A stretch of DNA of 64,000 nt, from contig JABHQR010000006.1 of NCBI GenBank assembly GCA_018696395.1, positions 1-64,000 on the forward strand, written 5' to 3'. A program made the translations under genes and the position numbers. This document shows positions 17,012-40,123 of this stretch, one piece after another. The notes beneath the pieces are model-generated. The model was not told the DNA's origin, did not search any database, and was given only the letters and a program-made list of their open reading frames with translations. Each line of letters starts with the position of its first letter. The stretch's first letter is position 1. The stretch is from an archaeon (GTDB taxonomy: Archaea > Nanobdellota > Nanobdellia > Woesearchaeales > GW2011-AR9).

Positions 17012-17022
17012 TTTATTTTTAT

Positions 17023-18043: not shown

Positions 18044-18091
18044 CTTTTTAGTTTTATTTTTTATTATGTTTAAGTTTAATAATTAATTATT

Positions 18092-18550: not shown

Positions 18551-18579
18551 AATATTTTTAGTATTTTTATTTATGGTAA

Positions 18580-19212: not shown

Positions 19213-19245
19213 TTTTATTTTAATAATTTAAAATTAAATTTAACC

Positions 19246-19569
19246 TTATTTACATTCTTCTTTTTCTGCATCAGTACATTCTTTATTCTCATCAATATTC
19301 TCTTCAGTCACACTAGAAGGGCACCCAGGATAATCTTCATTATCAGTAGTCCCATACTTACAAGGACATTTATCGTAAAAGTCTGCAACATCATCACTAT
19401 CACAATCACCAAAAGAATCTAATGCGTCTCCTACCGTTTCCATACCTTTGCCACCTTTATCTGTAACAAACCATAATACTAATGCCATTACTACAATTGC
19501 TATGATTGCTGCAATAACAATCCACCAAGTTTGAGTTTGAGCTTTTTTAAAATTAAACATTTTGTTCAC
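19246..19569 (-). CDS. Small KKAQ pilin-like protein with Asp/Cys-rich tail, 107 residues
   Basis: FKKAQTQTWWIVIAAIIAI shows the KKAQ leader and helix (about 15-36). After a Gly-rich linker, the segment DCDSDDVADFYDKCPCKYG resembles a thrombospondin type 3/Ca-binding repeat, with paired Cys and dense Asp. It closely resembles the 88-residue protein at 21687-21953 in layout, so the two may be paralogous small subunits. Confidence 0.7.
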   Translation of the reverse strand: MNKMFNFKKAQTQTWWIVIAAIIAIVVMALVLWFVTDKGGKGMETVGDALDSFGDCDSDDVADFYDKCPCKYGTTDNEDYPGCPSSVTEENIDENKECTDAEKEECK

Positions 19570-19610
19570 CTCTTTGATAATGATTGTTTTATTATTTTGA
19601 TCATATTATT

Positions 19611-20537: not shown

Positions 20538-21307
20538 TTGTTTAACATACCATGATTGACTTTGTAAGGTATTGAAGTTGTTTCAGTTGTGTCAATTAAA
20601 CAATCATCATCCAAAAATCCGTTATCACCATCACAGCCTAAATTACCATCTTTTGTAGGAAAAAAACAGACATGTTTATTGTCTGGAGTAAATAACCATT
20701 CATGACCCTCAAAATCAATAAAATCACTGCCAAATTTGATTCTATTTTCATTAAGACCATCAGTATTAAAAGTGATTACAATTGAATTAACAGCAGAATA
20801 ATAATCTGAACTTGCAGAACCTTCCATATTAAGAAATTTATTATCAAAATTTTGTGTTACTAATGAAGAACCTGCAATAACACAAGGAACCATACCTTCA
20901 ACAAAGAAATTTTCTGAACTAATAAATTGAGCAGTACTAGCACCACCTTTTACTAAAACATTTGTCCCAGAACCATTATAAGAAAAAGAAATTTCTAAAT
21001 TATCATCTTTACCAAAATCTGTCAAACCCGAATATTTAAGAAAACTATTGCTCCCACAATAAGTAGGGTTCACCATTTTTTGTAAGGCATTTTTTAAGTT
21101 TGATAGTTCAGTTTTTTGATTACTTGTAACAGATGCCTGAGCGGAGATTTCTTCTTTACCAATATCAACAAATTTATCAGCAAAATTTAATATTTTTTCT
21201 TTAGCATCATTTAATGCGCCAGTACCACCATACATGTAAATCATTAGAAATACTAAAACTGCAATAGGGATAACATAACCTACTATTTTCTCTATTGAGC
21301 CCATCAT
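20528..21307 (-). CDS. Membrane-anchored secreted protein in surface block, 259 residues
   Basis: The N terminus MMGSIEKIVGYVIPIAVLVF has one helix (about 8-26) but lacks the KKAQ motif. A coiled segment (about 30-75) follows, then a beta-rich domain with four or more Cys and a final DGDNGFLDDDC acidic patch. It overlaps the following gene by 10 nt and belongs to the same transcription unit. No known domain. Confidence 0.6.
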   Translation of the reverse strand: MMGSIEKIVGYVIPIAVLVFLMIYMYGGTGALNDAKEKILNFADKFVDIGKEEISAQASVTSNQKTELSNLKNALQKMVNPTYCGSNSFLKYSGLTDFGKDDNLEISFSYNGSGTNVLVKGGASTAQFISSENFFVEGMVPCVIAGSSLVTQNFDNKFLNMEGSASSDYYSAVNSIVITFNTDGLNENRIKFGSDFIDFEGHEWLFTPDNKHVCFFPTKDGNLGCDGDNGFLDDDCLIDTTETTSIPYKVNHGMLNKCT

Positions 21308-21348
21308 TTTAATTTATTCCTCTTTTTAATGAAAATATTTTCAATATT

Positions 21349-21489
21349 TCACATCAACATCTTTAAAGTTCCAAATAAATCGCCAAGTTTATCTGAAATA
21401 CCACCATAAAATAAAAATCCAAAAAAGATTAGTAATAGCATAAGTATCATTAAAACAATTTGCCACATTTCCATTCCTTTCTTATTCAT
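21349..21489 (-). CDS. 46-residue pilin-like microprotein
   Basis: ATG 21489 opens a 46-codon frame encoding MNKKGMEMWQIVLMILM..., with a KKGM leader, one hydrophobic helix (about 10-28) and a short polar tail ending at TGA 21349-21351. It has the layout of a minimal pilin. The frame sits in the surface block on the same strand, in an otherwise unexplained gap, together with a second microprotein frame. Confidence 0.6.
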   Translation of the reverse strand: MNKKGMEMWQIVLMILMLLLIFFGFLFYGGISDKLGDLFGTLKMLM

Positions 21490-21512
21490 TTTAAAATACC
21501 TACATCATCAAA

Positions 21513-21638
21513 TTAATTCATAATCAGACCATTTTTATTCAAAAACATAATAAAAGCTAAAAACATCATAATAGCAAGTATGATTATAACTATCATACTT
21601 AATGTTGCTTCTGACGCTGCTTGTTTGTTAAATTTCAT
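21513..21638 (-). CDS. 41-residue membrane microprotein
   Basis: ATG 21638 opens a 41-codon frame encoding MKFNKQAASEATLSMIVIII..., one hydrophobic helix (about 13-33) and the short end NKNGLIMN, closed by TAA. The leader NKQAAS resembles the NKKAQ motif imperfectly. Its position between two pilin-like genes and its single-helix layout support a real small subunit. Confidence 0.55.
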   Translation of the reverse strand: MKFNKQAASEATLSMIVIIILAIMMFLAFIMFLNKNGLIMN

Positions 21639-21686
21639 TTTCAAAATTTTGTTTCATAATTAAAATTAAATTGTAAAAAATAATAA

Positions 21687-21953
21687 TTATTCATTTATTG
21701 TTGGCGTTCCTAAACAACATACATAATCTCCACCGTAAGTATCACAGGTGAATACAGATTGTTTGGACGTACCATCTGGACAAACACTATTAGAGTAACA
21801 TACACCACCTTTAGCTTCACAATCCATGATGCCTTTTTCTAGAACATTAGTCTTTCCAGTGAACATTAACAATAATACGATCATTACAATTAAAGCAATA
21901 ACTGCAGCAATAATTATCCAGAAAGTGCTACCTTGAGCTTTTTTATTTTGCAT
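21687..21953 (-). CDS. Small KKAQ pilin-like protein with Cys-rich tail, 88 residues
   Basis: QNKKAQGSTFWIIIAAVIAL shows the KKAQ leader and helix (about 10-29). The 45-residue tail carries six Cys (CEAKGGVCYSNSVC, CDTYGGDYVCC), probably forming a compact disulfide domain outside the cell. GAGG lies upstream of the start. The layout matches the 107-residue protein at 19246-19569. Confidence 0.7.
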   Translation of the reverse strand: MQNKKAQGSTFWIIIAAVIALIVMIVLLLMFTGKTNVLEKGIMDCEAKGGVCYSNSVCPDGTSKQSVFTCDTYGGDYVCCLGTPTINE

Positions 21954-22028
21954 CTTCTTCCTCCTTGAATAAAAAATAATTTTTATAAAAATTAAATTTA
22001 AAAAATTAATAAAAAATTAATAATTGAC

Positions 22029-22382
22029 TTATTCCCAATCACAACCAGTAGATATGCAATTACTTGAATCAGTACCTTCGCCCCTGCATCTACTTATTTC
22101 AGATTTTAAAGTTGACCTAGTTTCATCAGTTACTGAACTATCTTCACTTTGCATTCCTGAAAGGAAATTATTCTCTGCGCTTTGAGTAGGATGACATGAA
22201 CCATAAGTTATTTTTAATGCAGTAAGTTCAGTAGTACCTTCTTTACTGATATCTTCATTGAATGAAGCCATTCTTCCAGAAAAGATTATTGCCAAAATCA
22301 CTAATACTATTAAAGCGAGTGCCGCAACAATAATCACAGTTAACGAAAGACCTTGTCCTTTTTTATCTTTAAAAAAATTCAT
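22029..22382 (-). CDS. KKGQ pilin-like protein, 117 residues, first gene of the distal unit
   Basis: KDKKGQGLSLTVIIVAALAL gives the KKGQ leader and helix (about 11-31). The polar ectodomain has four Cys (GSCHPTQ, SRCRGEG, NCIS, GCDWE). AGAGGTGA lies 6 nt before the ATG, one of the clearest ribosome binding sites in the block. The 228-bp gap upstream has its own TATA box, so this gene probably begins a transcript that runs to 15743. Confidence 0.7.
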   Translation of the reverse strand: MNFFKDKKGQGLSLTVIIVAALALIVLVILAIIFSGRMASFNEDISKEGTTELTALKITYGSCHPTQSAENNFLSGMQSEDSSVTDETRSTLKSEISRCRGEGTDSSNCISTGCDWE

Positions 22383-22410
22383 CTTAATTCACCTCTTGTT
22401 TATATCAAAT

Positions 22411-22426
22411 ATAAGCCCATGCTTAT
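22411..22426. promoter_or_regulatory. Inverted repeat at the promoter of the distal pilin-like unit
   Basis: ATAAGC and GCTTAT are separated by four bases and lie 29-44 nt upstream of ATG 22382. The right arm overlaps the TATA-like sequence TTTTATAAGC read on the minus strand (22421-22430). The repeat could be an operator that blocks TBP binding, or a weak terminator for the upstream unit. Confidence 0.45.
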
Positions 22427-22610
22427 AAAATATAATTATTATTACTTAATAAAAGAAATGTGTATTTAAAGATTACTAAATTTTCAAGGGAAAAAAGAGA
22501 TATTAATGCTATTTAAAACACCTCTTTTTAATATTATTAAATATATTGAAAAAACTGATTCAAATTGATTTTTAATTATTTTGTTAAAATTAAGAGAATT
22601 AATAAAATAT

Positions 22611-23180
22611 TCAATCACATAAATACAAAATACTTTCAATTAAACCTTGACCTTTGAGATATATAGCAAACTGTCCAGAAGTATCTCGTTCACTAGAATA
22701 AGTACATCCTCCATTGTCCACATAAATTAATTGATCTTCGTTAGTTCCAGATACAAAATTTGATTGAAGTTGATAATTTTTGTTCCATTGTCCTAATGTT
22801 TCGTTAAGAACATAACCAATTTGTTCTTGTAAAAAATCACATGAATGTAATCCGTCACACATATAATCAGAATAGATGTAACTTCCTTCCCTGCTGTTAT
22901 AATGTTCGGCACAATCTTCAAGCAGATCCAATTCCACACTTAACACTTTTGTAGAACCAGAACTTGAATCTTCACAAGTTAGTTCAGTTTTCATTATTGC
23001 ACTCATAGTACTAAAAGACAAACCTTTACGAGTAAATGTTTTTTTATCTTGATCCTGATTTAAAGCAAACTGGGCCATGAAAAGCATCCCAACTGTAATA
23101 AGAATTACAATAACAACTAAACCAATCATTTCTGCTTGAGCTTTTTTATTTGCACTTTTATTTCTTTGATATAATTCCAT
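22611..23180 (-). CDS. KKAQ pilin-like protein, 189 residues
   Basis: SANKKAQAEMIGLVVIVILI gives the motif and helix (about 17-38). K-A-Q-A fits the prepilin cleavage rule well. The ectodomain of about 150 residues has six or so Cys and many Tyr/Gln. The start codon directly follows the stop of the gene upstream with no gap. No family is recognised beyond the pilin-like N terminus. Confidence 0.7.
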   Translation of the reverse strand: MELYQRNKSANKKAQAEMIGLVVIVILITVGMLFMAQFALNQDQDKKTFTRKGLSFSTMSAIMKTELTCEDSSSGSTKVLSVELDLLEDCAEHYNSREGSYIYSDYMCDGLHSCDFLQEQIGYVLNETLGQWNKNYQLQSNFVSGTNEDQLIYVDNGGCTYSSERDTSGQFAIYLKGQGLIESILYLCD

Positions 23181-23744
23181 TTAAGAATATACCTCTACTG
23201 TGATATAACCAACACCATACATTCCTTTAATTTCTATACCCCTGGTAGTAGAACCAAAATTCCTGCCATGGGTTTCATCTTTCAAAGTTACAACAAAAAA
23301 AGTAGATTCTTTAAGTTGCCAACTAGAAACTTCTTCACCTTCTGCGTTGGTAGAAACTTTTTCTTTATCATATAAAACATAACTAATATTCCCAGGATAA
23401 ACTTCAGTTATAGATATTTTTGAAAAACCAAATATGTTAAAATAATAATCATTAATGTAATCTGATATTGTTTGATTAAAAGCTCTTAATTTTGACATAT
23501 CAATACAATTATCTTCTGATTCGGCACTACCCCGACTACACTGAAATTCTGGCATGAACAAAGCGGTTAATGTGATATCCATAGCATCATTAGCAAGAAG
23601 TTCTTCTTCTTTTTGTTCAAGACTAATTTGTTGAAATTTAAAATAAAAAATTAACCCAAATAATACTAATACAAAGAATATAAACAATACCCCTATGGTT
23701 TCCATCAGTTGCATCTGAGCTTTCTTATTTTTAGTGAATAACAT
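23181..23744 (-). CDS. KKAQ pilin-like protein, 187 residues
   Basis: TKNKKAQMQLMETIGVLFIF gives the motif (K-A-Q-M) and the helix at about 15-35, with a Glu near position 5 of the mature protein, as in true type IV pilins. The ectodomain has two Cys (FQCSRG, DNCID) and ends in beta strands. It abuts the next gene with no gap. Confidence 0.7.
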   Translation of the reverse strand: MLFTKNKKAQMQLMETIGVLFIFFVLVLFGLIFYFKFQQISLEQKEEELLANDAMDITLTALFMPEFQCSRGSAESEDNCIDMSKLRAFNQTISDYINDYYFNIFGFSKISITEVYPGNISYVLYDKEKVSTNAEGEEVSSWQLKESTFFVVTLKDETHGRNFGSTTRGIEIKGMYGVGYITVEVYS

Positions 23745-23785
23745 TTTATTTTTTATTTGAATTGGTTTTATTTAAATTAGCATAT

Positions 23786-24916
23786 TTAATAAATTGTAAC
23801 ACATAATTCTAAATCTAATAAGTCGTTCAATTGTTCTATTTCTGAAGCATAATTAATCAATGAAATACATTGACTATACCCTGAACTAGTACATACTTGG
23901 GCAGCTAAATGAATTCCATTAAATGGGTCATTAGTTTGTAATGCGGTTAAACATTCCGAATCGTAAGTTTCACTTCCTTCAGAATAATATTCCAACAATT
24001 CTTGATATTTTCCAGAATAAACTTCTGAAATTATTTCTAATCTTTCAAACATTTTAATCATATTACATTTGTAAGTTTCATCATTATGAGTAAATATTGC
24101 GGCATATTTAGTTACGTCACGTTCATCAGGAGAATTACTTATGATTGGAATTACTTCGTTGTTAAGTTTTTCAAAATGATTTCCTTCTTTTTGATAATAA
24201 TTAATTCCCCCAGTTGACATAAAACTTATTGCAGAAACCTTACTATCATCTAAAGATTCTAAAGATTCAGGAATTGCACCATTATCTGTTACTTGTGAAC
24301 CAGAAAGTCCAGAATCAAAATCAACAATTCTAACTTGATAATTATCACCTGGATCAATATCATCAAAACTATCAATAAATTCAAAATTTAAATCTATAGT
24401 GGAATTTAATAATTCTTCTTTCAAAGCTTGTTCTGAACTATCACCAATAACAAAATATTTAGTGTTTGAAGAAGTTATCATTAAAACGTCCATTACTTTG
24501 AAAGGAAATTTGTATGGTAAACTCCACGTAATCATTTCTGCAGTTTGAATTTTTGCAGGAGCAAAAATAGGTTCAATAATAGTTTCTTCAGTAGCACTAG
24601 TATCTTCAACACCATAACCTGAAAAAATATCTTTAAATCCACCATAATCATCAAGTTCACAAGTAAATGTAAAAGTATAATCAGTTAAACTACTGGTATC
24701 AACAAAATTTTTTGTTTGTTCAGAAGCTGTAGCTGCAGTGATGATAGATTCTAAGATCCTAGTCACATCATAACTCAAATTATCTTCAGAGATAGATTTT
24801 TGTTTAACGGCGATACCAATAAAAAAAAGAAGAATTACTGCTCCAGCTATTAAAACATATATCCAGTTAAAGGTTAAAGTATATTGACCTTTTTTATTAT
24901 TTTTTAAATATGACAT
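23786..24916 (-). CDS. KKGQ pilin-like protein, 376 residues
   Basis: KNNKKGQYTLTFNWIYVLIA gives the motif and helix (about 16-36). The large ectodomain of about 335 residues is acidic, with Cys in CELDD, KCNM, SECL, QVCTSSGYSQC and LELCVTIY. No known domain is seen. A 117-bp AT-rich gap upstream could hold a promoter. It lies between the 190-residue and the 187-residue pilin-like genes. Confidence 0.7.
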   Translation of the reverse strand: MSYLKNNKKGQYTLTFNWIYVLIAGAVILLFFIGIAVKQKSISEDNLSYDVTRILESIITAATASEQTKNFVDTSSLTDYTFTFTCELDDYGGFKDIFSGYGVEDTSATEETIIEPIFAPAKIQTAEMITWSLPYKFPFKVMDVLMITSSNTKYFVIGDSSEQALKEELLNSTIDLNFEFIDSFDDIDPGDNYQVRIVDFDSGLSGSQVTDNGAIPESLESLDDSKVSAISFMSTGGINYYQKEGNHFEKLNNEVIPIISNSPDERDVTKYAAIFTHNDETYKCNMIKMFERLEIISEVYSGKYQELLEYYSEGSETYDSECLTALQTNDPFNGIHLAAQVCTSSGYSQCISLINYASEIEQLNDLLDLELCVTIY

Positions 24917-25033
24917 GGAAAATATAACCCAAGTTATTAATATAAAGATAATTTAATATGTCTTTTAATTTTATTTAATTTTCATTTGATAACTTTAATT
25001 ATTTAAAAACAAAAAAGTAAATAAATCAACCAA

Positions 25034-25606
25034 TTATTCATAAACTGCTTCTGACAATTTTGTTCTTGAACCTAACCCTTCTAATCTTAATGAAAATGAA
25101 CCACTATTAATGTTCATACAAATAAAACCTTCATCAATACTAACCTTGTAAACTTTCATGGCCACAGGAGCACTAGGTTTTAGGAAAACATTTTCATCAG
25201 CACTATCATAACCATCCCCTGAATAAGATGCAGTTTCCCAAACATCACAAGCGATAGCATCGTAATTGCACAGTTCTTCATTATATTCTGAATCTAGGTC
25301 TACAAAACAGATTTGAGAATATTCCCTAGGTAATTGATAATCTTCTTGCCTTACTGACCCATATTCAGAATAAATTCTTTTAATACTATTTTCAATCTCA
25401 GATTTAAATTGATAAAATTCTACAGCTTCTCCTTTTTCTAAAAAATCACCTATTGCACTATACCCAAAAATCATAATGAAAGCAAAAGTAATAGCAGTTA
25501 CCATAAAAACAAATACTTGTTGGATCCCCATTGCTTTTTTGTTTAATTTGTTTGATTTTTTGAAATTAATTTTTTTAGAAATCAAGTTAAGTTTTAACAA
25601 ACCCAT
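25034..25606 (-). CDS. Pilin-like protein with KKAM leader, 190 residues
   Basis: A long basic leader ending in NKLNKKAMGIQQV precedes the helix at about 33-52, so the cleaved part would be about 26 residues. The ectodomain has four Cys (QICFVD, LCNYDAIACD, FICMNI). The ATG is only 2 nt after the stop of the 2141-residue protein gene, so the two are translationally coupled and probably act together. Confidence 0.7.
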   Translation of the reverse strand: MGLLKLNLISKKINFKKSNKLNKKAMGIQQVFVFMVTAITFAFIMIFGYSAIGDFLEKGEAVEFYQFKSEIENSIKRIYSEYGSVRQEDYQLPREYSQICFVDLDSEYNEELCNYDAIACDVWETASYSGDGYDSADENVFLKPSAPVAMKVYKVSIDEGFICMNINSGSFSLRLEGLGSRTKLSEAVYE

Positions 25607-25608
25607 TT

Positions 25609-28600
25609 TTACTTACCTCTTTTACCACTGATTTTTTTTAGTTTATTGAATATATTATTAGCATCTTTTTTAGTTATAATATCTTGTAAACTTTTAGTTT
25701 TTGATTTTTTAGATATTTCATCTAATTTATTGAAAAGAGATTCTTCTCCTTTTTTCATATTACCCCTGATTTCTTCCCGGTTCTTTTGATAGGTATTAAC
25801 TATATTTTTAACTTTTTCATGAGAGTCGGCCCCCTCATTTTCAAACACGTTCTTGAAATGAGAAGATACATTTGAAGAAGAACCAGAAAAACCAGAAAAT
25901 AATTTTTTTCTTTCACTAGATTTAGATCTTTGTAAATGCATTTTACTTAATTCTTTCAGTTTATCACCTAACCCTTTTAATCCAGAAAACATTGTTTGGC
26001 CAGAAGAGTTATTTGATCTTGAACTAGATCTGGTTTGTCCTACTTGTTGATAATAAGAACCTCTTGGCATTTGATTCTGGCCCGCTGGTGAATTAGTTCT
26101 CCCAAAACGATTGCCCATACCATTACCTAAAATCTTTTTACCTTGAAGAGTATTTAGATAAAAATAAACTAAATAACCAATACCACCACCAGTAAGTAAA
26201 ATACCAAGTATTAATAATACTAAACCGATTAATTTCAACCCATTATTTTCTGGTTCAGTAATGGATGTATCTAGGTTAGTTGTTGTTGAAGTGTTAGAAC
26301 TTTCTGCCATATCATTATCAGTATCGCCTCGTTCATCTGCAACACAAGGATCATAACCATTTTTATATTCTTCATAATTAGTGTAACCATCCCCGTCATT
26401 ATCATCATAACCATCAATAATACCATCATTATCTGTATCTTCACTTAAATAATTAAATTCACAAGATGTTTGATCAAATAATTTTTCCCAATAATCAGGT
26501 AAACCATCTTCATCTTTATCATTACCTTCTTCTTCATCAGGTACTTGACCATATGCACAACCATCACTATCAACAACTTTACCATCTGAAGTGTCTGAAC
26601 AGGTATCACAAGTATCGCCAACTTCATCAGAATCGTCATCACTAAAAGTCACTTTTTTCAAACCAGTTTTGTTATTACCATTAACATCTTCAACATAATA
26701 ACAGATCCAACCAGATTCACTAAAAGTTAATTGATTACCATAATAATCACCATCTGCACTACAAGTAGAAGATGAACTAGAGATACCGTACTTAAATTCT
26801 GAACAACCATTTTCATCTTCACAGATTAATTCCGCATAAGTCGCAGTACAAGTTTCATTAGTTTCTAATGTAATGCTAGGGGCTTCTTCATCTTCTGCAC
26901 AAGAGCTATAATTTGATCCTACCGCAATAAAACCATCACTGAGAGTATATTCACCCCAATTCCCTGCTGCATCTACTGCTAAAACTTGAACATAATAAGT
27001 TTCATTTTCAGTAAAAGTTGCAGAGATAGTTGTTTCATTATTTGCAGGTAAAGTCCCATTACTTAACAAGATAGTATCAGAACTATTTGAAGTTGTAGAT
27101 GAACTACTACTTGAAAAAGAACTGCTAGAACTTGAACTACTTGAAGATTCAGGCTCACCTTGATACAATTCATAATAATAACTGGAAATGTTTGATTCAT
27201 CTGTATAAACTAATAATTTTACTTCACTCAAACCACAAGTGTAAATCCCATCATCGATGCTAGAAACTGTTGGAGCAGTTAAATCAATATTAAAATCAAT
27301 TTCTCCATCACGATTATTTTCTCCCACAAGGCAAGTTATCAAATAATGATATTCTCCTTCATCTAAAGTACCCATACCCTGGATATGTGAAGTTCCACCA
27401 GTAGTTTCAAAATCAGTACTGTCATAATAACAGTACGCATTTTTGTTAGTTTCAACACCTAAACTTACGTTAGTATAAGATATGTAACCCCCTGGACTGA
27501 CACTTACAATATAACCTGAAGCAGAATAATCTACAGAAAAAGTAATTTCACTAACTTCACTCAAATCACCAGCACCATTCATACATTGAACGTTAAGAGT
27601 ATAATCTTTTTGTGCACCATCAAAACTAAATGAAAAAGTAGTTTCATGATCAGTATAAAAAATATTATCAGTACTAGAACTATCATCTTCATAACCTGGG
27701 AAAGAATATTCCATAGTATCAAATTCTACACTACCAGCACCATCAGAATTGTCACTATATTTACATGCAGTTTTATCATCGGTACTTACATACAAGTTAG
27801 TGTTTATACCTTCCATAACATCACTTGGGTCTGCATAAGCTGAACTGATACTAGGTGCAATAGGGTCATATTCTAAATAAATTTTTTGTGAAGGACTAAT
27901 ATCACCTAATTGGTCTTCACATTTAACATAAATTGTTTTTGAACTTCCATCAGTATCAAAATCACTAAGTACATCCGCAGGGAAATTTTCTATTATATAA
28001 TAATCATCAGTTGTAGAATCATCAAAAGTTCTTAAACTTGGAACTGAATCATAATCAAATTCTGAATTGAAATCAAATTTACATTGTTCAGTTTCTAATT
28101 TACTCATAATTTCCCAATCAAAAGTAGCAGTGTTACTTACACCCCATAATTCATCTTCATAATAAAAACCATCTGGATTAACTTGTTTAATTCCAAATCC
28201 TTCAATAATAATATCCCCACATTCAGGATAAGCGTATGAACCAGATTCATCAGTAGAATAATAACAAATTTGAATAGTTTCAGCAGTTGTAACAGTTTCA
28301 GAATATTCAGTATAATTTGTTGAAGTTGAATATTCACAACCTTCACCTAAACAATAATAGGTATATTGACATTCAAACCCATCAGAATCGCATTCAAAGT
28401 CAATTGAAACTTCTTCCACAAAGTAAGTTTCCCAACCATAACTAGTAGGTTCTTCTGTTCTTTCACCTTCAGTTAAAATTATTTGTGTATTGGGTGCAGT
28501 AAAATCTACATTGAAATAAAAGTAATCTTCAAGATAGTCATCAGTCAAAGATTCAACACATACAACTTTCACAGTTCCGGCATATTCACCTTCATAAAAA

Positions 28601-31600
28601 CCACTAATTGATTCAGTTTTATGTTCTTTATTATCTTCATCTTGATTAATAAAATCAGTCACATAATCATAACTTAAAGTTCCTTCATCATATAAGTATA
28701 ATTCACAACTTGCAGATACTGCAGTTTCTATTTGAAATTCAATACTAGTTTCGTCTACAGGTTGTTCATAAGCAGGATATAATAAAGTTATATCTTGTTC
28801 TTGATCAAATACTAAAGTTTCTGTTTCAGTGTTAACATTGGCATGGTCATCCATACAGTTAATAGTAATATCATAAATAACGCCAGTAAGACCAGTATAT
28901 TCTTTTTCTTTATCTTCTTCTCTCCCCAGGCTTGAAGTGGAATTACTTCCTTCAGGTAAAATTGGACTTAAAGTAAAATCACAATCCATCATTTCATTCA
29001 TATCGCTCAAGTAAACTGTTAAATCAGTACTATCTGCTTCAATAGTGTATTCAGTTTCAATTTGAAATTCTGGCAATTTATTGTCAATAAAAACATAAGT
29101 TTCTTTAACAGATTCTTGATTATAATATTTATCTTTAGAATAAAATCTAAGTAAGTAAGTTTCACCAGAGACAATAGTTGAAGACAAGTATGAACTGTTA
29201 ATTAAATCAACTTCAACTGATTCTTCATTAACTACACCATCATAAGATACTGATTCAAAATTGTTACATGAACTAGAATCTGAACTTGACAAACAATAAT
29301 ATAATTCACCTAATGAACTGGATTGATCAATACTATTAAAGGTTACATTTGGATAAGTTACAGAGATTATTGAAAAACTTTCACTTTCAACATTTGTTTC
29401 AGGCGCGTCATTATCAACTTCACAAGAACTGTATTCACCTGCACTAAAAACAGAACAATCTTCAACACCATCAGCATCACCATCTTTAATACAATATCCT
29501 GTTGACAAATTACTATCTGCAGCAACCCAAGAACATCTTCCCCAAGAACATCTATCTTCAGACAACATAATTTCACCATAACTATTTTCAATGTTTTGTT
29601 CGGAGATACATTCTAATTCAGAATTATATTCATAACAATTTGCATCGTCACTCGAAATTTCACCACATTCATTACATACAGTTAAGTCATCTTCAGAGAA
29701 ACATCTTCCTAAATTTGTACAGATGTAAGGAGTACAATAACTATTTTCAAACAGATTAGCATCAGGACCACATGAATAACATTGATCATCTTCTTCATAT
29801 TCATCTTCAATACAATAACCTTGACCAGTTTCAAAAGTTGTTTCATAAAGTACAGAATAATCTAACATCTCTTCATCGGATGAACTAGACCCAGAAGCAC
29901 TTACGCCTTCAGCAGTAGCATCAATCCAATTACAACCGATACCTAAACAATTATTAGATGTACAAGCATCTTCACTAACATAATCAAAACAATTATCAAA
30001 CTCATCGCAAGAATAACATTTATCTGATACTGTTTCAGTAAAGTCATAATAACAATAATTTTCATAACCGCTTGTTGATGAGTATTCACCATAACAGGTG
30101 TCACGATCATAATAAAGTCCGAAAGGATCTGCCCCTTGTTGTAAAACATTACAATTACCAGCATTTTTACATACTGCATAACCTGAACTTGCTTCAGTAC
30201 AATACCAATCACTATCAGAATCATCTAAACTACTACAATCTGAACTAGTAACTAAATTATTTTCATTATCACAAGTATAAATATATTTTTTCTCGTTACT
30301 TTCAGTACTAGAATCATCACTCATACAAAAATATTGGCCACTTTCAAACCCTTCACAATAATCACTACCTAAAGTAATAGTTGCAGAAGCACCTTCACTA
30401 GATAATCTTGATTGTGGATCACCAGTACTATTGTCCACTGGACCATCAATGTAAACTGCCCAGATTTCGTAAGTATAAGTGTTACCCCATTCAACATCTT
30501 CATCAGAATAAGATATTGCAATTGGAGATAAAGTTAAAATTAAAACATCGTCCCTATAAAGATAATACCCACTAACTTCTGAACAAGGTTTATCCCATTC
30601 TAAATCAACTATCAATTCTCCGCTGACAATATTTGCAATGAGTTCTTCAACAGGTTTTTGATCATTTTCTTGACCGTAACTACATTCACCGATATATTTG
30701 GTCATCAATAAATCAATATCTTCAGTTCCGCCATCACTGATTGTAATTTCATAATCTTCAGAACCATAATCTTGATATGTTGCGCTAACATTATAAGTAC
30801 CAGATCCTAAGTTAATTTCAAAGTCACCATCAGGATAATCTGAACTTCCTTTGTAAACACCATCAACATAAATTTTTGCACCATAAACTAAATCATCAGC
30901 TAAACTGTCACCATTTTCGTCTACCCAAGTATTACCAGTAATTCCTTGAAAATCAATTTCACTTAAAGTTAAGTCTTGTTCATTGTCTCCTTCAGCTAAA
31001 ATAAGTTCAATTTCAGTTGTAGAGTAAGAATATTTACTTAAAGTAATACTGTAATCGCCAGTATAGATGTTAGTAACATTATAAAAACCATCACTTCCAG
31101 AAGTCACACAAGATATTGAAGTTCCATCATAGCAAATAGTTACAGAACTTACTGTGTTACCTTCAGAATCATAGATGTAACCAAACAAGTTAGAATATTC
31201 ATCTGCAATGGATAAAGTAATGTTAAATTCTTCTACTTCACTTGATGATAAAGATACCGAACTAGAATCAGAATAATATCCTTCTGCAGAAGTTTTTACA
31301 ACATAAGATCCTGGGTTAACATTTGAAAAGGAATAATAACCATCTGAACTAGTAGTATAAGAATTTGAACTAGTTAATTCAATATCAGCACCACTTATTG
31401 GACTTCCAGTTTCGTTAAGTACATAACCAGAAACACTAGCATAACTTAATTCCACACCACATATATCTGTTTGACAGGAATCAGGATCAATATTATCAGT
31501 GATATAATATAAATCTTCTAAGTCATAACCTCTTTGTTCAGCATTTTCCAAACATTCATATTTTGTACTAACATAATTACAAAAATCAGCTACTTGACAA

Positions 31601-32034
31601 CAACCTTCATTACACCATAGACCATATTCATCATCAGATACAGCTTCACCGCCAAGATCTTCACAAACAGTTAAAGCGTGGTAATCACAATCAACAGAAC
31701 AAACAACTTCTTCACAAACTTCATCAAATTCACTTGATGAACATAATTTCCCAGAATAAAAATAATCATCAAAATTGTCACAATTATCATAAGATTCACA
31801 ATCTGATTGAGCTTCACTTTTCAAGGTATTATCTTGACATACTAAATCTTCACTTCCGCTAGGAAAGATATAACATCCTTCCGTATCAGCATAAGAAAAA
31901 TTGTTAGGTGCAATCAAGGCGATTAAGATTAAAATAAGTAAAATAAAGGAGAGTTTAGTAAAGTTATTTAATTTAGGAGGATTACTGATAGGTTTAACAT
32001 CTACATCTGATAATCCTCTTTTTCTTAATTTCAT
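25609..32034 (-). CDS. Giant Cys-rich multidomain surface protein, 2141 residues
   Basis: After an N-terminal helix (about 29-50) comes a Cys-rich module (about 54-195) that is shared with the 396-residue neighbour. Next are three carboxypeptidase-regulatory/CnaB-like beta domains (about 198-450; e.g. VSGYVLNETGSPISGADI) and an FN3-like domain (about 465-560). Long Cys-rich and Ig-like repeats follow, then a polyserine linker (about 1628-1650) and an Asp-rich thrombospondin type 3/EF-hand-like stretch (DTDNDGIIDGYDDNDGDGY, about 1860). A transmembrane helix (about 1932-1960) precedes a 178-residue basic, Ser-rich cytosolic tail. It is probably an adhesin or a scaffold for the pilin-like proteins. 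The N terminus has KRGLSDV but no adjacent helix. Confidence 0.8.
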   Translation of the reverse strand: MKLRKRGLSDVDVKPISNPPKLNNFTKLSFILLILILIALIAPNNFSYADTEGCYIFPSGSEDLVCQDNTLKSEAQSDCESYDNCDNFDDYFYSGKLCSSSEFDEVCEEVVCSVDCDYHALTVCEDLGGEAVSDDEYGLWCNEGCCQVADFCNYVSTKYECLENAEQRGYDLEDLYYITDNIDPDSCQTDICGVELSYASVSGYVLNETGSPISGADIELTSSNSYTTSSDGYYSFSNVNPGSYVVKTSAEGYYSDSSSVSLSSSEVEEFNITLSIADEYSNLFGYIYDSEGNTVSSVTICYDGTSISCVTSGSDGFYNVTNIYTGDYSITLSKYSYSTTEIELILAEGDNEQDLTLSEIDFQGITGNTWVDENGDSLADDLVYGAKIYVDGVYKGSSDYPDGDFEINLGSGTYNVSATYQDYGSEDYEITISDGGTEDIDLLMTKYIGECSYGQENDQKPVEELIANIVSGELIVDLEWDKPCSEVSGYYLYRDDVLILTLSPIAISYSDEDVEWGNTYTYEIWAVYIDGPVDNSTGDPQSRLSSEGASATITLGSDYCEGFESGQYFCMSDDSSTESNEKKYIYTCDNENNLVTSSDCSSLDDSDSDWYCTEASSGYAVCKNAGNCNVLQQGADPFGLYYDRDTCYGEYSSTSGYENYCYYDFTETVSDKCYSCDEFDNCFDYVSEDACTSNNCLGIGCNWIDATAEGVSASGSSSSDEEMLDYSVLYETTFETGQGYCIEDEYEEDDQCYSCGPDANLFENSYCTPYICTNLGRCFSEDDLTVCNECGEISSDDANCYEYNSELECISEQNIENSYGEIMLSEDRCSWGRCSWVAADSNLSTGYCIKDGDADGVEDCSVFSAGEYSSCEVDNDAPETNVESESFSIISVTYPNVTFNSIDQSSSLGELYYCLSSSDSSSCNNFESVSYDGVVNEESVEVDLINSSYLSSTIVSGETYLLRFYSKDKYYNQESVKETYVFIDNKLPEFQIETEYTIEADSTDLTVYLSDMNEMMDCDFTLSPILPEGSNSTSSLGREEDKEKEYTGLTGVIYDITINCMDDHANVNTETETLVFDQEQDITLLYPAYEQPVDETSIEFQIETAVSASCELYLYDEGTLSYDYVTDFINQDEDNKEHKTESISGFYEGEYAGTVKVVCVESLTDDYLEDYFYFNVDFTAPNTQIILTEGERTEEPTSYGWETYFVEEVSIDFECDSDGFECQYTYYCLGEGCEYSTSTNYTEYSETVTTAETIQICYYSTDESGSYAYPECGDIIIEGFGIKQVNPDGFYYEDELWGVSNTATFDWEIMSKLETEQCKFDFNSEFDYDSVPSLRTFDDSTTDDYYIIENFPADVLSDFDTDGSSKTIYVKCEDQLGDISPSQKIYLEYDPIAPSISSAYADPSDVMEGINTNLYVSTDDKTACKYSDNSDGAGSVEFDTMEYSFPGYEDDSSSTDNIFYTDHETTFSFSFDGAQKDYTLNVQCMNGAGDLSEVSEITFSVDYSASGYIVSVSPGGYISYTNVSLGVETNKNAYCYYDSTDFETTGGTSHIQGMGTLDEGEYHYLITCLVGENNRDGEIDFNIDLTAPTVSSIDDGIYTCGLSEVKLLVYTDESNISSYYYELYQGEPESSSSSSSSSSFSSSSSSTTSNSSDTILLSNGTLPANNETTISATFTENETYYVQVLAVDAAGNWGEYTLSDGFIAVGSNYSSCAEDEEAPSITLETNETCTATYAELICEDENGCSEFKYGISSSSSTCSADGDYYGNQLTFSESGWICYYVEDVNGNNKTGLKKVTFSDDDSDEVGDTCDTCSDTSDGKVVDSDGCAYGQVPDEEEGNDKDEDGLPDYWEKLFDQTSCEFNYLSEDTDNDGIIDGYDDNDGDGYTNYEEYKNGYDPCVADERGDTDNDMAESSNTSTTTNLDTSITEPENNGLKLIGLVLLILGILLTGGGIGYLVYFYLNTLQGKKILGNGMGNRFGRTNSPAGQNQMPRGSYYQQVGQTRSSSRSNNSSGQTMFSGLKGLGDKLKELSKMHLQRSKSSERKKLFSGFSGSSSNVSSHFKNVFENEGADSHEKVKNIVNTYQKNREEIRGNMKKGEESLFNKLDEISKKSKTKSLQDIITKKDANNIFNKLKKISGKRGK

Positions 32035-33445: not shown

Positions 33446-36400
33446 TTATTCTTGAGCGTACCTTAACCTACCAACTAAATTTGGCCACCAGAAATCAGTG
33501 TTAGTTGCAGTAATTACTTCATACACTCCCTCATCGTTTAAACTACAGTTAACTAAATAGTTTGGTTCTGCAGGCCATTGTTCAACGATAACATATTCTT
33601 CATTAATATTATTAACATAATCACATACTGGAACATTAAATCCATCGTATTCTGCAATTAAAGTAGTAGCATTAACATTCTTTTCTTCAATTGCTCTAAC
33701 AACATAATTTCCATTGTCCATGCTCATCATGTAAAGTTTGTTAAAGTTAGTAGCTTCGTCTAAGAAATCTTCATTATCTTGTAAAGTTGAACTACTGAAC
33801 AAACTACCGAACCAGTCAAAGATTTCATCAACTAAATTTGATTCAATACTAATCCCATCTTTAGCATAAATTAAAGAATTAATTTCTGGTGCATACCACA
33901 ACTCTTCACTACATTCTTGGAAATCACTACTATTATCACCACTTGCACAAAATTCTTCTTTGTCTGAACTAGAAATACCTAGTGGTATTAAGAAAGAATT
34001 GTCTGCCGAAGTGTTCCTATTCATACTAGTTGCAAATGCAGTTGCGAAATCATTACCAGATTCATATTTTAAAACACAGACATTGTTAATGCAAGTATTT
34101 TCTTCAGTATCAACTAATCTTCGACCAGTTTCACTATTTTCTAAAGCAGAGAAACAAATAGAAGTAGTATCTGAACTACTGGATGAAGTAGTAGTATTAG
34201 TTACAGAATCACCTAAACTAGATTCAGTTTCAACTTCACCCGAACTTTCACCCATAATATAATTTATATAATTGTAACCAGAAACAGCATAATCTAAATA
34301 ATTTGTTTCTAAATCAGTACAGTACATCACATAATCTTGACTATCTGCATAATTCAATAATTTAGTTGCTAAATATTTTGTTCTACTACTCCACTCACCA
34401 TCTTCACAGTAATGATCTAAAATGTATTCACTGGAATTAACACAAGTAGGATAATTTCCATCATAAAAATCGTTAGGCGTAGCACCAGAATCTGCACCTT
34501 CAGACAAACTGCTGGTTACAAAACATTGATTATCATTGCTACAAAAACCATATTCATCAAAGTTCCAATCATATTTTGGATCCATATGTGTCCATTGACC
34601 ATCAATACAACGATAATCAACTTCCCCAGACTGTTCAGTCATGTAAGTGTAAGGTGCCATGTTATTCACACACACATACCCGTTCCAACACATATCTTCA
34701 GGACAACACGCTGCACCTTTCCTTAATTGAAATTCATTATCATAATTATAATCTTGTGCACCCATATCATCAACTAACTGAATCATAGGTCCATGAAATG
34801 AACATTCGCCAGGAACTTCAATAACAGCATAAGTATAACTTCCTGAATTGAAACTTAACGAAGAACTGGTTGTATAAACTGTTTCAGCATCGTTAGTATC
34901 ATAAAGGTAAAAATTAACTGAACATGACGAATTTTGACTAAACTGATAATCCATTTCTGAGTATAATGCAATTTTTTCTGACCACAAAATATTTCCTGAT
35001 TCTATTGTAAAAATATTATCATTAACATGATAATCTTCATCTTCAGATAATTGATTATTGGAATCTCTCAATTTCCAAGCAACGACATCGTCACCATTTT
35101 GATTACTAAAATCTGAATTTGAAACAAAATTTCTTCCAGGCACAACTGAAGTAGAATAATTTCTATCAGTAGCAGCACAATCATCTGCAGAATTGCACGA
35201 TGCTAATTCAAATTCCATATCTTCTTCATATTCAGCAATTTCTTCATAACCAGTTTCATTAATCCCATTATTACTCCAAGTACTTACCAAATAATTATTA
35301 TCTTGATATGCACAATAATAAGAACCTTGAATGTCACAATAACTTAAATCTTCACCTTCATAATCTGTGAAAATGTTAGTATTTGTAATGTAATCTGCTG
35401 CATTACATCCCCAGAAACTTTGGTTATAATGTAATACTTGTTGAGACAATTTTTTTACAACTAAGTTAGCATCTTCTGTGTACTCTTGAGCTATTGAAGT
35501 AATCAATATCTCATCTTCATCATTATCACCAAACCGATAATATAATTCGTACAAGCCGGGATGTAAGTTAGTTACTTTGTAAGGTGGATTACCTGGCAAA
35601 GCATAAACACATTCATCTTGTAAGCAAGGATAATTGAAAGTGGAGTCAGTAGTTGTTTCGTAAGCAGTGCTTTCGAGGATGTTAGTTTCCGCGATAAGTT
35701 GGATTGTAAATTTTTGAAGTAATTCTGAATCATCAATAGTAATAGTAACATCATCACCAAGATAATTTTGTTCCTTTGCATCAAATAGATATAAACTTAC
35801 AGTTTCATTTTCAGTCCAGTTGAGAACTATTTCAATGTCTGAATAACTAGAAGCACTATTCCAAGTATAAATGTCATCAAGCAAACCATAATAAGTTGCA
35901 ATAACTTTAGGAGATTCATTATAATTGATATTAACTGGTCCTGAAGTAATAGGAACAGAATATATACCACCAATACCCAAACTAGAGGTTAAACTAGGGT
36001 TATTGACTTGAGAAATACTTGTTAAATCATAAGAGTTATAATTATAATCTGTAAGATCCAGCCATGAGAATACAAGAGCAACACCATACTCAAACTCTTG
36101 ATCAGGATAATCCATAGTAAAATCTTGTACTTCGTATTCAACTTTGTACTCAACATTCATTACAGTTTGATCATTCTCAATAACTTTTGAATTCCAACAA
36201 CCTAACCCAGAATCATCAGCAGACTTACCAGCATAATATTCATTTTCATCATCACCACAACAAGATGCAGTTTCATCATCAATCTCTAATTCACCATAAG
36301 AACCTAACCAAGCATTAGCCCCAAAATGATTTTGACAAATTTTTTCACCAATCACAGGATTATGTTCATCAGATTGATCAAAATCTTCAATCCAAGAATT

Positions 36401-38695
36401 GTATCCATGTTCAGTATCTTTAGTACTATAACCTGAACAGTAATAATTGATATCATTCTCAGTCTTAGTTAAGTGTAAATTTTTAACAGTAAATTCATTA
36501 CCTTCTGATCCATCTGCAGTGAAATCAAGAATACTTACATCTAACCAATCGCCAACAGGTACTTTAACATGTATTGGATCAGAACCACTTAAATCAGGAG
36601 AAGTTATTGCATAACCTAATACATTTTCATCAAAGTATACAACATCTTCAGAATAACTATCCTGTCCGAACCCATTAATTTTAAGATGAACATCAGCAGG
36701 ATAAACTAAATCTTCTGGATTTGTGAATTCAACAAAAAAGTCTAAGTAATCATAATTTGTAAAATCAACAGAATAATCTAATTCACGATATTGATCATAA
36801 TAATTACTTCCACCACCATAATCACCTTCTAAGTTTATGTTCGTCCCACCAGACATCAAATTGAAAAACCCATCACCAGGATTCCTAAATTTAACAGTAT
36901 CTTGATTTGGAGGAGATAATCCTTCAATTGCTTCTGGGTCAGCACATTCTACCCAAACATTTCTATCTCCTTGATCATAACAAATAAACCTATTTGCAGT
37001 ATAACGATAATCATCAATATTATCTCCAGATATGGTAGTTTCAGGTTTTTCTAAAGTTCCTAAGATATTATCATCATTACAAGTAAACCAATTTTCTGAG
37101 TTAGAAACTATGTCCCAACTTTTTTCACCATTAATTTTTAATGTTAAAATTTCAAATATATTTGTTTGAGGATCTACCCAACACCAATCACTATTTTTAT
37201 CGCAACTTGTAACATCTTCACTATCAGAACTACTTTCACCACTTTTTGAACCAACTACTTTATCATCACCAACTTTCAAACAAGCTTTGTTAGAACCTGA
37301 ATCTGATTCTATTATAACACCTAAATCATCAATTTGATCTGCACCACAACAATAACCCTCATCAGTTTCAATATCATCAGTTTCAGCACCCTCATCAGTT
37401 TCAGAATAATCAATATAATCACATTCTCTTTCTGATTCTAAACAGTTATGTTCACAAGCGTAAGGATTTTCATCACAAGTATCTATTTCATCTGTTGTTA
37501 GTTGACCTACATCATAACCCAAATTAATATAATAATCTGCCAAATTAGTGTATAACTCTGAATCTGGACATTTATTACTTTTACCATCGCCGCAAATCTC
37601 AACTGATAAATCATCCTCTTCAAAACCATCAAAGATACCTAAATCAGTGTATGTAAATCTACTATCTGAATCACAATCCCAATCTTCAGAAAAGTCAGGA
37701 GCATCATCATAATCAGAATCTAAATCTGAGTTCATACTTAAATCAGAATCAATTTTTATCCATTCATTACCATCACAGTAAAATGCTTTTAGTTTGATGA
37801 TTGGACTTCCATCTTCATTTTCACCAACATTAACTTCTTGAGTTACAATTAATTCATTTGTTACAGAATCTTCATCATCATCATATAAATCAAATTTTTC
37901 ACCGTTCCCATTATGTCCGCCACTATCAGTTACAGAATCAAAACATTTTAACATTAATGGTAGCGAGTCAGCACCTAATGTTTCAGTAAGTTTACTTAAA
38001 TCCTTAGGATCAAACCCATATTGTTTTGTTGAATCTAATTCGTTTAATTTTATTGAATAAATATCAGTGCAAGGATAAATTGCATGGGCTTGAGATTCAT
38101 AATCAGCACCACCATCATCATGGATATCCCCTCCAAAACCATCACCATCTTCACAATCATCTTCTTCACAATATATATCATCTCCAAAAAAGTGATCAGC
38201 ACAGATTGCACCTGATTCTAAAGAGTCGTGCCATTCCCAAGTATCAGACATACCGGATAAGGCATCTTCCCCCTTGTCCCATACATCATAAAAAATTTCT
38301 GCAAACATTTGATTAATAATTTTATTTGTTTCAAAATCATAAATATAATCATTACTTACTTTTGTAGTAGTTTGTACGGTTACAAAACCATTTGTAATTT
38401 CAAGACCTTCTAAATCTCTAAAACAAACTTCTCCCTCAAAATCATTACTTGATTCCGCAGAAGAGTAGGGTTTTACACAAAGATAAGACTCGTCATCATC
38501 AAGTATGTATGTTTCATCTGCTGTCGAACAATCTTTAAAACCATCAATAACTTCATCACTAGCACACCCACTTAACAATAAGCCAGAGATGAATATGGAG
38601 AATAGTAGTACATATAAGAAAATGCTGTAATTTTTGTTAAACGCACTCTTAAATGCACTTTTAGAACTATTAACATCTATTCCTCTTTTCCCCAT
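33446..38695 (-). CDS. Giant lipobox protein, 1749 residues
   Basis: The N terminus carries a basic region of about 23 residues, a hydrophobic helix (about 24-41) and the lipobox LLSGC with Cys44, followed by Ala-Ser-Asp. This is a textbook lipoprotein signal. The mature part is acidic, Tyr/Asp/Ser-rich and Cys-rich, with no C-terminal membrane helix. Near the C terminus two short repeats share C-x-D-G-x-W-(T/S), and a Ser/Thr-rich linker lies at about 1475-1500. No known catalytic domain is seen. It heads the surface block; lgt, which would lipidate it, is encoded about 670 bp upstream on the other strand. MGKRGIDV at the start echoes RKRGLSDV of the 2141-residue protein. Confidence 0.78.
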   Translation of the reverse strand: MGKRGIDVNSSKSAFKSAFNKNYSIFLYVLLFSIFISGLLLSGCASDEVIDGFKDCSTADETYILDDDESYLCVKPYSSAESSNDFEGEVCFRDLEGLEITNGFVTVQTTTKVSNDYIYDFETNKIINQMFAEIFYDVWDKGEDALSGMSDTWEWHDSLESGAICADHFFGDDIYCEEDDCEDGDGFGGDIHDDGGADYESQAHAIYPCTDIYSIKLNELDSTKQYGFDPKDLSKLTETLGADSLPLMLKCFDSVTDSGGHNGNGEKFDLYDDDEDSVTNELIVTQEVNVGENEDGSPIIKLKAFYCDGNEWIKIDSDLSMNSDLDSDYDDAPDFSEDWDCDSDSRFTYTDLGIFDGFEEDDLSVEICGDGKSNKCPDSELYTNLADYYINLGYDVGQLTTDEIDTCDENPYACEHNCLESERECDYIDYSETDEGAETDDIETDEGYCCGADQIDDLGVIIESDSGSNKACLKVGDDKVVGSKSGESSSDSEDVTSCDKNSDWCWVDPQTNIFEILTLKINGEKSWDIVSNSENWFTCNDDNILGTLEKPETTISGDNIDDYRYTANRFICYDQGDRNVWVECADPEAIEGLSPPNQDTVKFRNPGDGFFNLMSGGTNINLEGDYGGGSNYYDQYRELDYSVDFTNYDYLDFFVEFTNPEDLVYPADVHLKINGFGQDSYSEDVVYFDENVLGYAITSPDLSGSDPIHVKVPVGDWLDVSILDFTADGSEGNEFTVKNLHLTKTENDINYYCSGYSTKDTEHGYNSWIEDFDQSDEHNPVIGEKICQNHFGANAWLGSYGELEIDDETASCCGDDENEYYAGKSADDSGLGCWNSKVIENDQTVMNVEYKVEYEVQDFTMDYPDQEFEYGVALVFSWLDLTDYNYNSYDLTSISQVNNPSLTSSLGIGGIYSVPITSGPVNINYNESPKVIATYYGLLDDIYTWNSASSYSDIEIVLNWTENETVSLYLFDAKEQNYLGDDVTITIDDSELLQKFTIQLIAETNILESTAYETTTDSTFNYPCLQDECVYALPGNPPYKVTNLHPGLYELYYRFGDNDEDEILITSIAQEYTEDANLVVKKLSQQVLHYNQSFWGCNAADYITNTNIFTDYEGEDLSYCDIQGSYYCAYQDNNYLVSTWSNNGINETGYEEIAEYEEDMEFELASCNSADDCAATDRNYSTSVVPGRNFVSNSDFSNQNGDDVVAWKLRDSNNQLSEDEDYHVNDNIFTIESGNILWSEKIALYSEMDYQFSQNSSCSVNFYLYDTNDAETVYTTSSSLSFNSGSYTYAVIEVPGECSFHGPMIQLVDDMGAQDYNYDNEFQLRKGAACCPEDMCWNGYVCVNNMAPYTYMTEQSGEVDYRCIDGQWTHMDPKYDWNFDEYGFCSNDNQCFVTSSLSEGADSGATPNDFYDGNYPTCVNSSEYILDHYCEDGEWSSRTKYLATKLLNYADSQDYVMYCTDLETNYLDYAVSGYNYINYIMGESSGEVETESSLGDSVTNTTTSSSSSDTTSICFSALENSETGRRLVDTEENTCINNVCVLKYESGNDFATAFATSMNRNTSADNSFLIPLGISSSDKEEFCASGDNSSDFQECSEELWYAPEINSLIYAKDGISIESNLVDEIFDWFGSLFSSSTLQDNEDFLDEATNFNKLYMMSMDNGNYVVRAIEEKNVNATTLIAEYDGFNVPVCDYVNNINEEYVIVEQWPAEPNYLVNCSLNDEGVYEVITATNTDFWWPNLVGRLRYAQE

Positions 38696-38714
38696 TTTAG
38701 TATCTCTTGCTTTT

Positions 38715-38724
38715 GTTAGCTAAC
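38715..38724. promoter_or_regulatory. 10-bp palindrome at the predicted start site of the giant lipoprotein gene
   Basis: GTTAGCTAAC is a perfect palindrome, followed by a second overlapping one (GCTAACTAGC, imperfect). It lies about 20 nt before the ATG and about 25 nt after the TATA-like ATATTTATAC at 38741-38750. A repressor bound here would cover the transcription start. Confidence 0.4.
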
Positions 38725-38740
38725 TAGCTTTAATTTTAAA

Positions 38741-38750
38741 GTATAAATAT
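38741..38750 (-). promoter_or_regulatory. TATA box of the giant lipoprotein gene
   Basis: On the minus strand ATATTTATAC lies in the 96-bp gap between the RNase P gene and the lipoprotein gene, which places the start site near 38720, inside the palindrome. Confidence 0.45.
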
Positions 38751-38791
38751 TTTACCTATTTAACCTTTTCCTTATTTTAATAATAAGATAA

Positions 38792-39331
38792 TTATATTTC
38801 CAAAGCATTTTTAGTACAATTTAGAACTTTTAAGATTGCTCTTAACTCTTTTGGAGCACGCATTTGCATAGCACTCTTAGAAAAATTACCAAAATAAATT
38901 TTCACACCAAACTTTTTACACAATTTCAAATTAAACCTAATTCTGTTTAATAATTTAGCCCTTTCAAACCCAGGTTTGGATTTCAGAATGTCATAAAAAG
39001 AAAATCCAATAATTTTTTCATGCTTAACAGCTAATTTACAAACTATTTGATCCAACCCACCACGAACAAAATGAACATTATCTTTAGGATTAATTTTCTC
39101 AATACCTAAAATAATATCAACTTTAGTTTTTTCAATTAAATATCTTAAAGTATCTTCGTCCTTAACATTAACTATCACCAACACACCTTTCTTTTTAGCT
39201 AAATCAATATCTTTACGAACTTTATTTTTGTTATCAGCTTCCAAAATAATGAAATCTTTACCAGAAATTAAAGTTTTAGTAAAACCTAAATCAAGTCCAA
39301 AATCTTTCATAACTAAATTAACATTACCCAT
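38792..39331 (-). CDS. rnp3: RNase P protein subunit p30 (Rpp30/Rnp3)
   Basis: The 179-residue protein has the PHP-like TIM-barrel pattern of Rpp30: RGGLDQIVCKLAVKHEK, IGFSFYDIL, RIRFNLKLCKKFGVKIYFGN and SKSAMQMRAPKEL. These match archaeal p30 subunits, which bind the specificity/catalytic RNA of RNase P in tRNA 5' processing. It is somewhat shorter than the typical 210-240 residues. It is divergent from lgt with 36 bp between the starts. Confidence 0.88.
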   Translation of the reverse strand: MGNVNLVMKDFGLDLGFTKTLISGKDFIILEADNKNKVRKDIDLAKKKGVLVIVNVKDEDTLRYLIEKTKVDIILGIEKINPKDNVHFVRGGLDQIVCKLAVKHEKIIGFSFYDILKSKPGFERAKLLNRIRFNLKLCKKFGVKIYFGNFSKSAMQMRAPKELRAILKVLNCTKNALEI

Positions 39332-39367
39332 TAAACTTAAATAAATTCATTATATTATAAAAACTTA

Positions 39368-40123
39368 ATGATAAATCCTATTGCTTTCCAAACAAGTTTC
39401 TTTTCAATTAGATGGTATGGCATAATGATGTTGATAGGTTTATTTTTAGGTTTTTTAGTTTGGAAATATCTTTGCAAAGAATACCTTAACAAAAAAGAAG
39501 TGATTGAATTATACATAATCATTATGGTAGGATTATTTATTGGAGCAAGATTGTTCCATGTAATATTTTACAATTGGTCATACTTTTCAACAGATCCTAT
39601 AAAAATATTATTTATCTGGAATGGTGGAGTTTCTTCTCATGGAGCGATTGTAGGTTCATTTACATCTTATTATATTGGGAGTAAAATTAAAAAGATTGAT
39701 ACTTGGAAAATTTTAGATCAAGCAATTATAGGTATTGCATTAGCAGTAGGATTTGTAAGAATAGGAAATTTCTTAAATAGTGAATTGGTAGGAAAAATCA
39801 CAGATTTACCTTGGTGTGTGAAATTCAATAACAAAGATTGCAGACACCCAGTCCAATTATATGATGCAATTAAAAATTTTACCATATTCATAATTTTATA
39901 CTCAATCAATCAATCAAAAAAGATAAATTTACCAAAAGGTACAATTTTTTGGTTATTCATATTTACATACAGTTCATCAAGGTTCGTGACAGAATATTTT
40001 AAAGAATATATTATTTTTAATTCAGGATTAACAATAGGTCAGTACTTATCAATACCATTCATAATAATTTCTTTTTCAGCTTTAATTTTGATTTTAATTA
40101 AATCACTACCAACTAGACAATAA
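39368..40123 (+). CDS. lgt: Prolipoprotein diacylglyceryl transferase, bacterial type
   Basis: The 251-residue polytopic membrane protein has the Lgt residues in order: Tyr17 in RWYG, the GARLFHVIFYN segment (about 59-69), His91-Gly92 in VSSHGA, Arg131 and Asn134 in the signature RIGNFLNSE, HPVQLYD (160-166), and Tyr201 with Arg205 in YSSSRF. In bacteria this enzyme transfers diacylglyceryl from phosphatidylglycerol to a lipobox cysteine. It is rare in archaea, whose lipids are ether-linked, so the donor here is uncertain. The nearby 1749-residue lipobox protein is the likely substrate. Confidence 0.93.
   Translation: MINPIAFQTSFFSIRWYGIMMLIGLFLGFLVWKYLCKEYLNKKEVIELYIIIMVGLFIGARLFHVIFYNWSYFSTDPIKILFIWNGGVSSHGAIVGSFTSYYIGSKIKKIDTWKILDQAIIGIALAVGFVRIGNFLNSELVGKITDLPWCVKFNNKDCRHPVQLYDAIKNFTIFIILYSINQSKKINLPKGTIFWLFIFTYSSSRFVTEYFKEYIIFNSGLTIGQYLSIPFIIISFSALILILIKSLPTRQ

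Follow-up and report, generated by a model that had tools for sequence, protein, structure and literature searches.

Bacterial-type Lgt and LspA point to a probable lipoprotein pathway in most of a DPANN archaeal phylum

Introduction

The bacterial lipoprotein pathway, built on Lgt and LspA (signal peptidase II), has in Lnt an optional third step, present in diderms and some others. The structurally described member of the first enzyme family is E. coli Lgt (PF01790; 5AZB/5AZC), in which Y235 and E243 are part of a hydrogen-bond network at the attacked carbon; the Y235F/L/S and E243A/Q/R variants fail, as do G142V and R246K, and E243D is absent from the variants reported (PMC4728403). In archaea, lipobox proteins are served by the haloarchaeal AliA/AliB pathway, which makes lipoproteins in Haloferax volcanii (PMC12186497) and which, compared here by description only, is described as non-homologous to the bacterial enzymes (PMC13251419, PMC12186497). 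Lgt was called absent from archaea in a 2026 paper (statements of absence are found in PMC13251419, PMC12186497 and PMC2945643), and our literature search for Lgt or LspA in DPANN archaea found no report, although an earlier mention is possible. For Ca. Nanohaloarchaeum antarcticus, a DPANN cell without lipid synthesis, recruitment of lipids from the host is established (PMC11035636); this is another DPANN lineage, and the findings cited concern lipids rather than a lipoprotein enzyme.

Here we describe an Lgt encoded in a window of 64,000 nucleotides (the whole stretch of DNA analysed, from assembly GCA_018696395.1) and argue that it is very probably part of a two-step, bacterial-type lipoprotein pathway present in most of its DPANN phylum. 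In the proposed pathway, a protein whose signal peptide carries a lipobox would be exported, Lgt would transfer the glycerolipid moiety of a phospholipid of the phosphatidylglycerol type to the lipobox cysteine, and LspA would cut before the lipidated cysteine, such that the protein would stay anchored by its lipid.

Results

The window encodes a full-length bacterial-type Lgt

The following features of the window are central to the analysis (basis of assignment in brackets):

39368..40123, + strand: Lgt, extra copy, 251 aa (PF01790, 5AZB alignment, AlphaFold/Foldseek, residues)
33446..38695, − strand: giant Cys-rich secreted protein, 1749 aa, predicted lipoprotein (ORF)
38567..38695, − strand: signal peptide of the giant protein, residues 1–43 (sequence, lipobox scan)
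38564..38578, − strand: lipobox LLSGC of the giant protein, residues 40–44, predicted lipidation at Cys44 (sequence, G028 alignment)
38792..39331, − strand: RNase P p30-like gene between lgt and the giant gene (PF01876)

The window Lgt matches PF01790 along almost the entire profile (positions 1–239 of 240; E=1.2e-61, 208.6 bits against a cut-off of 24.9), and its sole sequence relative in the PDB is E. coli Lgt (5AZB). A preliminary description of this DNA had listed six key residues as all present in this Lgt, and alignment to 5AZB bears this out, with Y17, H91, R131, N134, Y201, and R205 falling at the E. coli catalytic positions Y26, H103, R143, N146, Y235, and R239; E139, G142, and E209 (E. 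coli E151, G154, and E243) are also kept. The AlphaFold model (mean pLDDT 93) has the seven-helix Lgt fold, and Foldseek pairs it with 5AZB (E=1.6e-13, TM 0.78 by query length), the next match having an E-value of 0.36. The ORF at 39368–40123 (+) is, as judged by sequence and predicted fold, a full-length bacterial-type Lgt and presumably an active one. Set against its place in a working pathway, the window copy has Val at the position of E. coli G142 and Lys at that of R246, changes that fail in the E. coli enzyme; its 22 nearest kin, some of them bacterial, all have Val or Ile at the former and Lys at the latter.

Directly 3′ of lgt, the segment 40210–43015 encodes a ThiS/SAMP2-like protein (67 aa, ending in SGG), a PP-loop ATPase of the TtuA/Ncs6 kind, and a ThiF-type E1, with a ThiI-like THUMP protein on the opposite strand; these genes form a tRNA-thiolation or ubiquitin-like module.

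Window and resident copies probably differ in origin and in their donor pockets

The source genome (1.38 Mb, 98.9% complete) holds a second lgt (L002) at C5:76726–77445. In a tree with bacterial sequences, a check that the preliminary description had proposed, L002 sits within a clade of 17 Lgts from the same family (support 98), while the window Lgt groups with Lgts from other families of the phylum (support 86), and that group adjoins a bacterial clade rich in Bacteroidota and Ignavibacteriota (support 96–97), the bacterial sequences being an unbalanced sample, picked because they matched the window Lgt best. Both the unconstrained tree and the combination of V/I with K residues place the window copy with Bacteroidota-type sequences. 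A single origin of the archaeal Lgts was not rejected by an AU test from which 10 divergent archaeal paralogues, 3 monoderm bacteria, and 1 duplicate had been left out (p=0.665). The position in the tree marks the window Lgt as an additional copy that probably came from another lineage, and the L002 type as the resident copy of the family.

The resident copies depart from the bacterial enzymes at the donor pocket. All 17 carry Glu or Asp at Y235 and Asp at E243 (E. coli numbering), whereas the 77 bacterial Lgts compared include no case of an acid at Y235 and invariably have Glu at E243. We infer that the pocket of the resident enzymes may be altered; an acid at a position where the E. coli substitutions fail also weighs against a pathway function for these copies. 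Across the phylum, 59 of 74 Lgt sequences keep all key residues when either Glu or Asp is accepted at E243, and the equivalents of R143, R239, H160, and P161 are retained in nearly all. Several relatives encode a divergent second Lgt-like paralogue (L135, L137, L140–L143, L145–L148) on a long branch, in some cases with Cys at N146.

Lgt and LspA co-occur across the phylum

The preliminary description had called for a search of the genome for Lsp, and this identified one LspA (C20:44476–44859; PF01252, E=1.9e-31), which aligns to a solved LspA (6RYO) through both Asp motifs and so resembles bacterial signal peptidase II in family and motifs; it differs in being archaeal and in the distance of its gene from lgt. 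Close paralogues (ISKVGGQW..ISGAVTSSATDTGN) occur at 14886–15566 of the window and at 1923–2537 (−) of L003, the latter beside lspA, and since this pair spans the window and the LspA contig, it ties the LspA contig to the source genome. Lnt was not found in the source genome and exceeded its cut-off in 3 of 138 genomes.

Lgt is present in 85 of 96 relatives and, in a phylum set of 279 genomes of at least 85% completeness, in 207 genomes distributed over 73 family codes (181/220 of those that are near-complete with low contamination). Such a spread across an archaeal phylum sets these enzymes apart from bacterial Lgt, and the rarity in archaea supposed by the preliminary description does not hold here, with about three-quarters of the phylum, and a second, resident gene in the source genome itself, on record. 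LspA is present in 199 of the same 279 genomes; 189 have both enzymes, 18 Lgt only, 10 LspA only, and 62 neither (Fisher p=9e-35, a value overstated because the genomes are related). The four archaea in the control set gave no match to Lgt or LspA, and the search of other archaeal phyla extended to these four.

Contamination is one rival source of this pattern, in that Lgt and LspA genes on bacterial contigs could have been misbinned into archaeal genomes; the genomes are mostly metagenome-assembled, and many bacterial Lgts are 33–40% identical to the window copy. The window lgt, however, is embedded in a contig that carries replication genes of archaeal type (RadA, MCM, PolD subunits, and Orc1/Cdc6, identified by eye from translations), and the neighbouring RNase P p30-like gene (34 bits against PF01876, for which the Pfam cut-off is 35) is likewise archaeal context, outside the lipoprotein pathway. 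The 17 family copies form one clade, the proportion of Lgt carriers is high among the low-contamination genomes, single-contig genomes carry Lgt (G058, G144, G147, and G125), and GenBank titles the Lgt contigs L034, L035, and L050 as Nanoarchaeota or archaeon, which makes the phylum Nanoarchaeota (Nanobdellota). The Lgt of L050 is identical to that of class member G156. Misbinning is, in our estimation, scarcely credible.

Lipobox proteins accompany Lgt

A simple N-terminal scan for lipoboxes, applied to samples rather than whole proteomes (394 kb of the source genome and stretches sampled from 17 others), gave 10 candidates in the 394 kb, 8 of them textbook; a further 40 kb of the source genome added none. 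Scaled up, the source genome would encode ~25 lipoproteins. The preliminary description had held that lipoboxes no more frequent than chance would undo its proposal. In the 394 kb, Cys follows a suitable hydrophobic stretch in 10 of 131 N-terminal cases but in none of 145 internal cases (p=5e-4), and lipobox genes make up 23 of 1,253 genes in nine genomes with Lgt against 1 of 788 in nine without (p=1.8e-4), with relatedness among genomes inflating the p-values. The single exception comes from G161, and other genomes of its family do carry Lgt. Given LspA in the source genome and an excess of lipobox proteins over chance, the bacterial-type pathway that the preliminary description had envisaged in a DPANN cell gains support.

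Candidates from the source and related genomes include cupredoxins, PEGA, amidohydrolase, cytochrome b5-like, and NosD-like β-helix proteins; one cupredoxin (149 aa, lipobox LLISC) is encoded on the strand of the second lgt, two genes downstream of it.

The pocket changes of the resident copies (Y235 to D/E, E243 to D), and the Cys at N146 in some divergent paralogues, would suit homologues engaged in another job, such as general phospholipid remodelling, with the lipoboxes as bystanders. We consider this unlikely, in that the lipoprotein pathway is all that Lgt and LspA have in common and the two co-occur, lipobox proteins track Lgt, and the R143, R239, H160, and P161 equivalents persist as noted above. 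A further reading starts from the Haloferax precedent and has these lipoproteins made by an AliA/AliB route, with Lgt a minor or decaying acquisition; we regard it as very unlikely, given that Lgt is widespread in the phylum, mostly full-length with its key residues retained, and that lipoboxes vanish where it is missing.

The giant neighbour is a plausible lipoprotein, with no support for a special link to Lgt

The preliminary description had singled out a 1749-residue protein near lgt with a textbook lipobox, and the ORF confirms it: the signal peptide ends in LLSGC, with Cys44 as the predicted lipidation site. The protein has no Pfam match, and a search of 36 other genomes of the same family gave relatives in 32. 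The two genes lie close together, 0.7 kb apart, and a sound lipobox is common to the giant protein and its closest relative found (G028, whose lipobox Cys aligns with Cys44), as would be expected of a dedicated enzyme–substrate pair. Yet a separate gene, that for the RNase P p30-like protein, stands between them, and in relatives the giant gene is either ~100 kb from lgt on the same contig (G028, G005, and G009) or on another contig. Of the 20 orthologues compared at the N-terminus, that of G028 alone has the lipobox, the other 19 having ordinary signal peptides without Cys; G028 itself has only a resident-type Lgt. A dedicated pair is thus highly improbable, the special link once suggested is not supported, and the adjacency is coincidental. 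By its sequence the giant protein remains a plausible lipoprotein in the source genome, and may as such be a substrate of Lgt.

Two further features were observed elsewhere in the window. Approximately 11 consecutive minus-strand genes (15743–25606), adjoining two very large secreted proteins, encode prepilin-like products with a short basic N-terminal segment and one hydrophobic helix (KKAQ/KKGQ motifs). A secreted protein of 2141 aa, encoded at 25609–32034 (−), contains carboxypeptidase-regulatory-like domains, a Ser-rich stretch, and, at its C-terminus, a membrane helix; it has no lipobox.

The donor lipid is most likely scavenged

GGGP synthase (PF01884), PlsY, and PlsC-type acyltransferases were not found in the source genome, and they appear in 5 of 279 (over cut-off), 8 of 195, and 66 of 195 genomes, respectively, the absence of PcrB, PlsY, and PlsC being called with Pfam models that could miss divergent enzymes. 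The scarcity of GGGP synthase agrees with a published Woesearchaeota group without GGGP and DGGGP synthase (PMC8421398). The source genome does have one CDP-alcohol phosphotransferase and CarS (CDP-archaeol synthase family, at G000:C9:48892–49431), the latter despite the missing GGGP synthase, as if the cell finished a scavenged backbone. Because the three synthesis enzymes were not found and these two were, we consider the donor most likely to be a phospholipid obtained by scavenging from another cell, or one that the cell completes on a scavenged backbone; in our judgement an ether lipid is somewhat favoured, with an ester lipid a serious contender.

CDP-alcohol phosphotransferase is missing in 86 of the 207 genomes with Lgt. 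Nine near-complete ones (G028, G096, G085, G099, G108, G111, G113, G117, and G121) lack all glycerolipid genes tested (CDP-alcohol phosphotransferase, CarS, PlsC, and PlsY), and a host-derived donor is therefore plausible. The suggestion in the preliminary description that lipid might be taken from a host fits the missing lipid genes and remains a reasonable idea.

A bolder reading, which we offer as a doubtful though conceivable one, is that the DPANN Lgts are an archaeal branch whose pocket was remodelled, through an acid at Tyr235 and Asp at Glu243, for building lipoproteins with host ether lipids, and that the imported, Bacteroidota-type window copy, which has the Tyr/Glu pair, takes a second donor. 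If this were true, one cell may anchor proteins with two foreign kinds of lipid.

Discussion

Both the enzyme family and the pathway proposed here are known; what differs is the domain of life and, probably, the source of lipid. As common archaeal equipment, Lgt and LspA contradict the published statements of absence cited above. Because these DPANN cells are mostly without a lipid synthesis of their own, the lipid attached to their lipoproteins would reveal whose membrane lipids the cells use. The dependence of DPANN archaea on their hosts thereby becomes testable by mass spectrometry.
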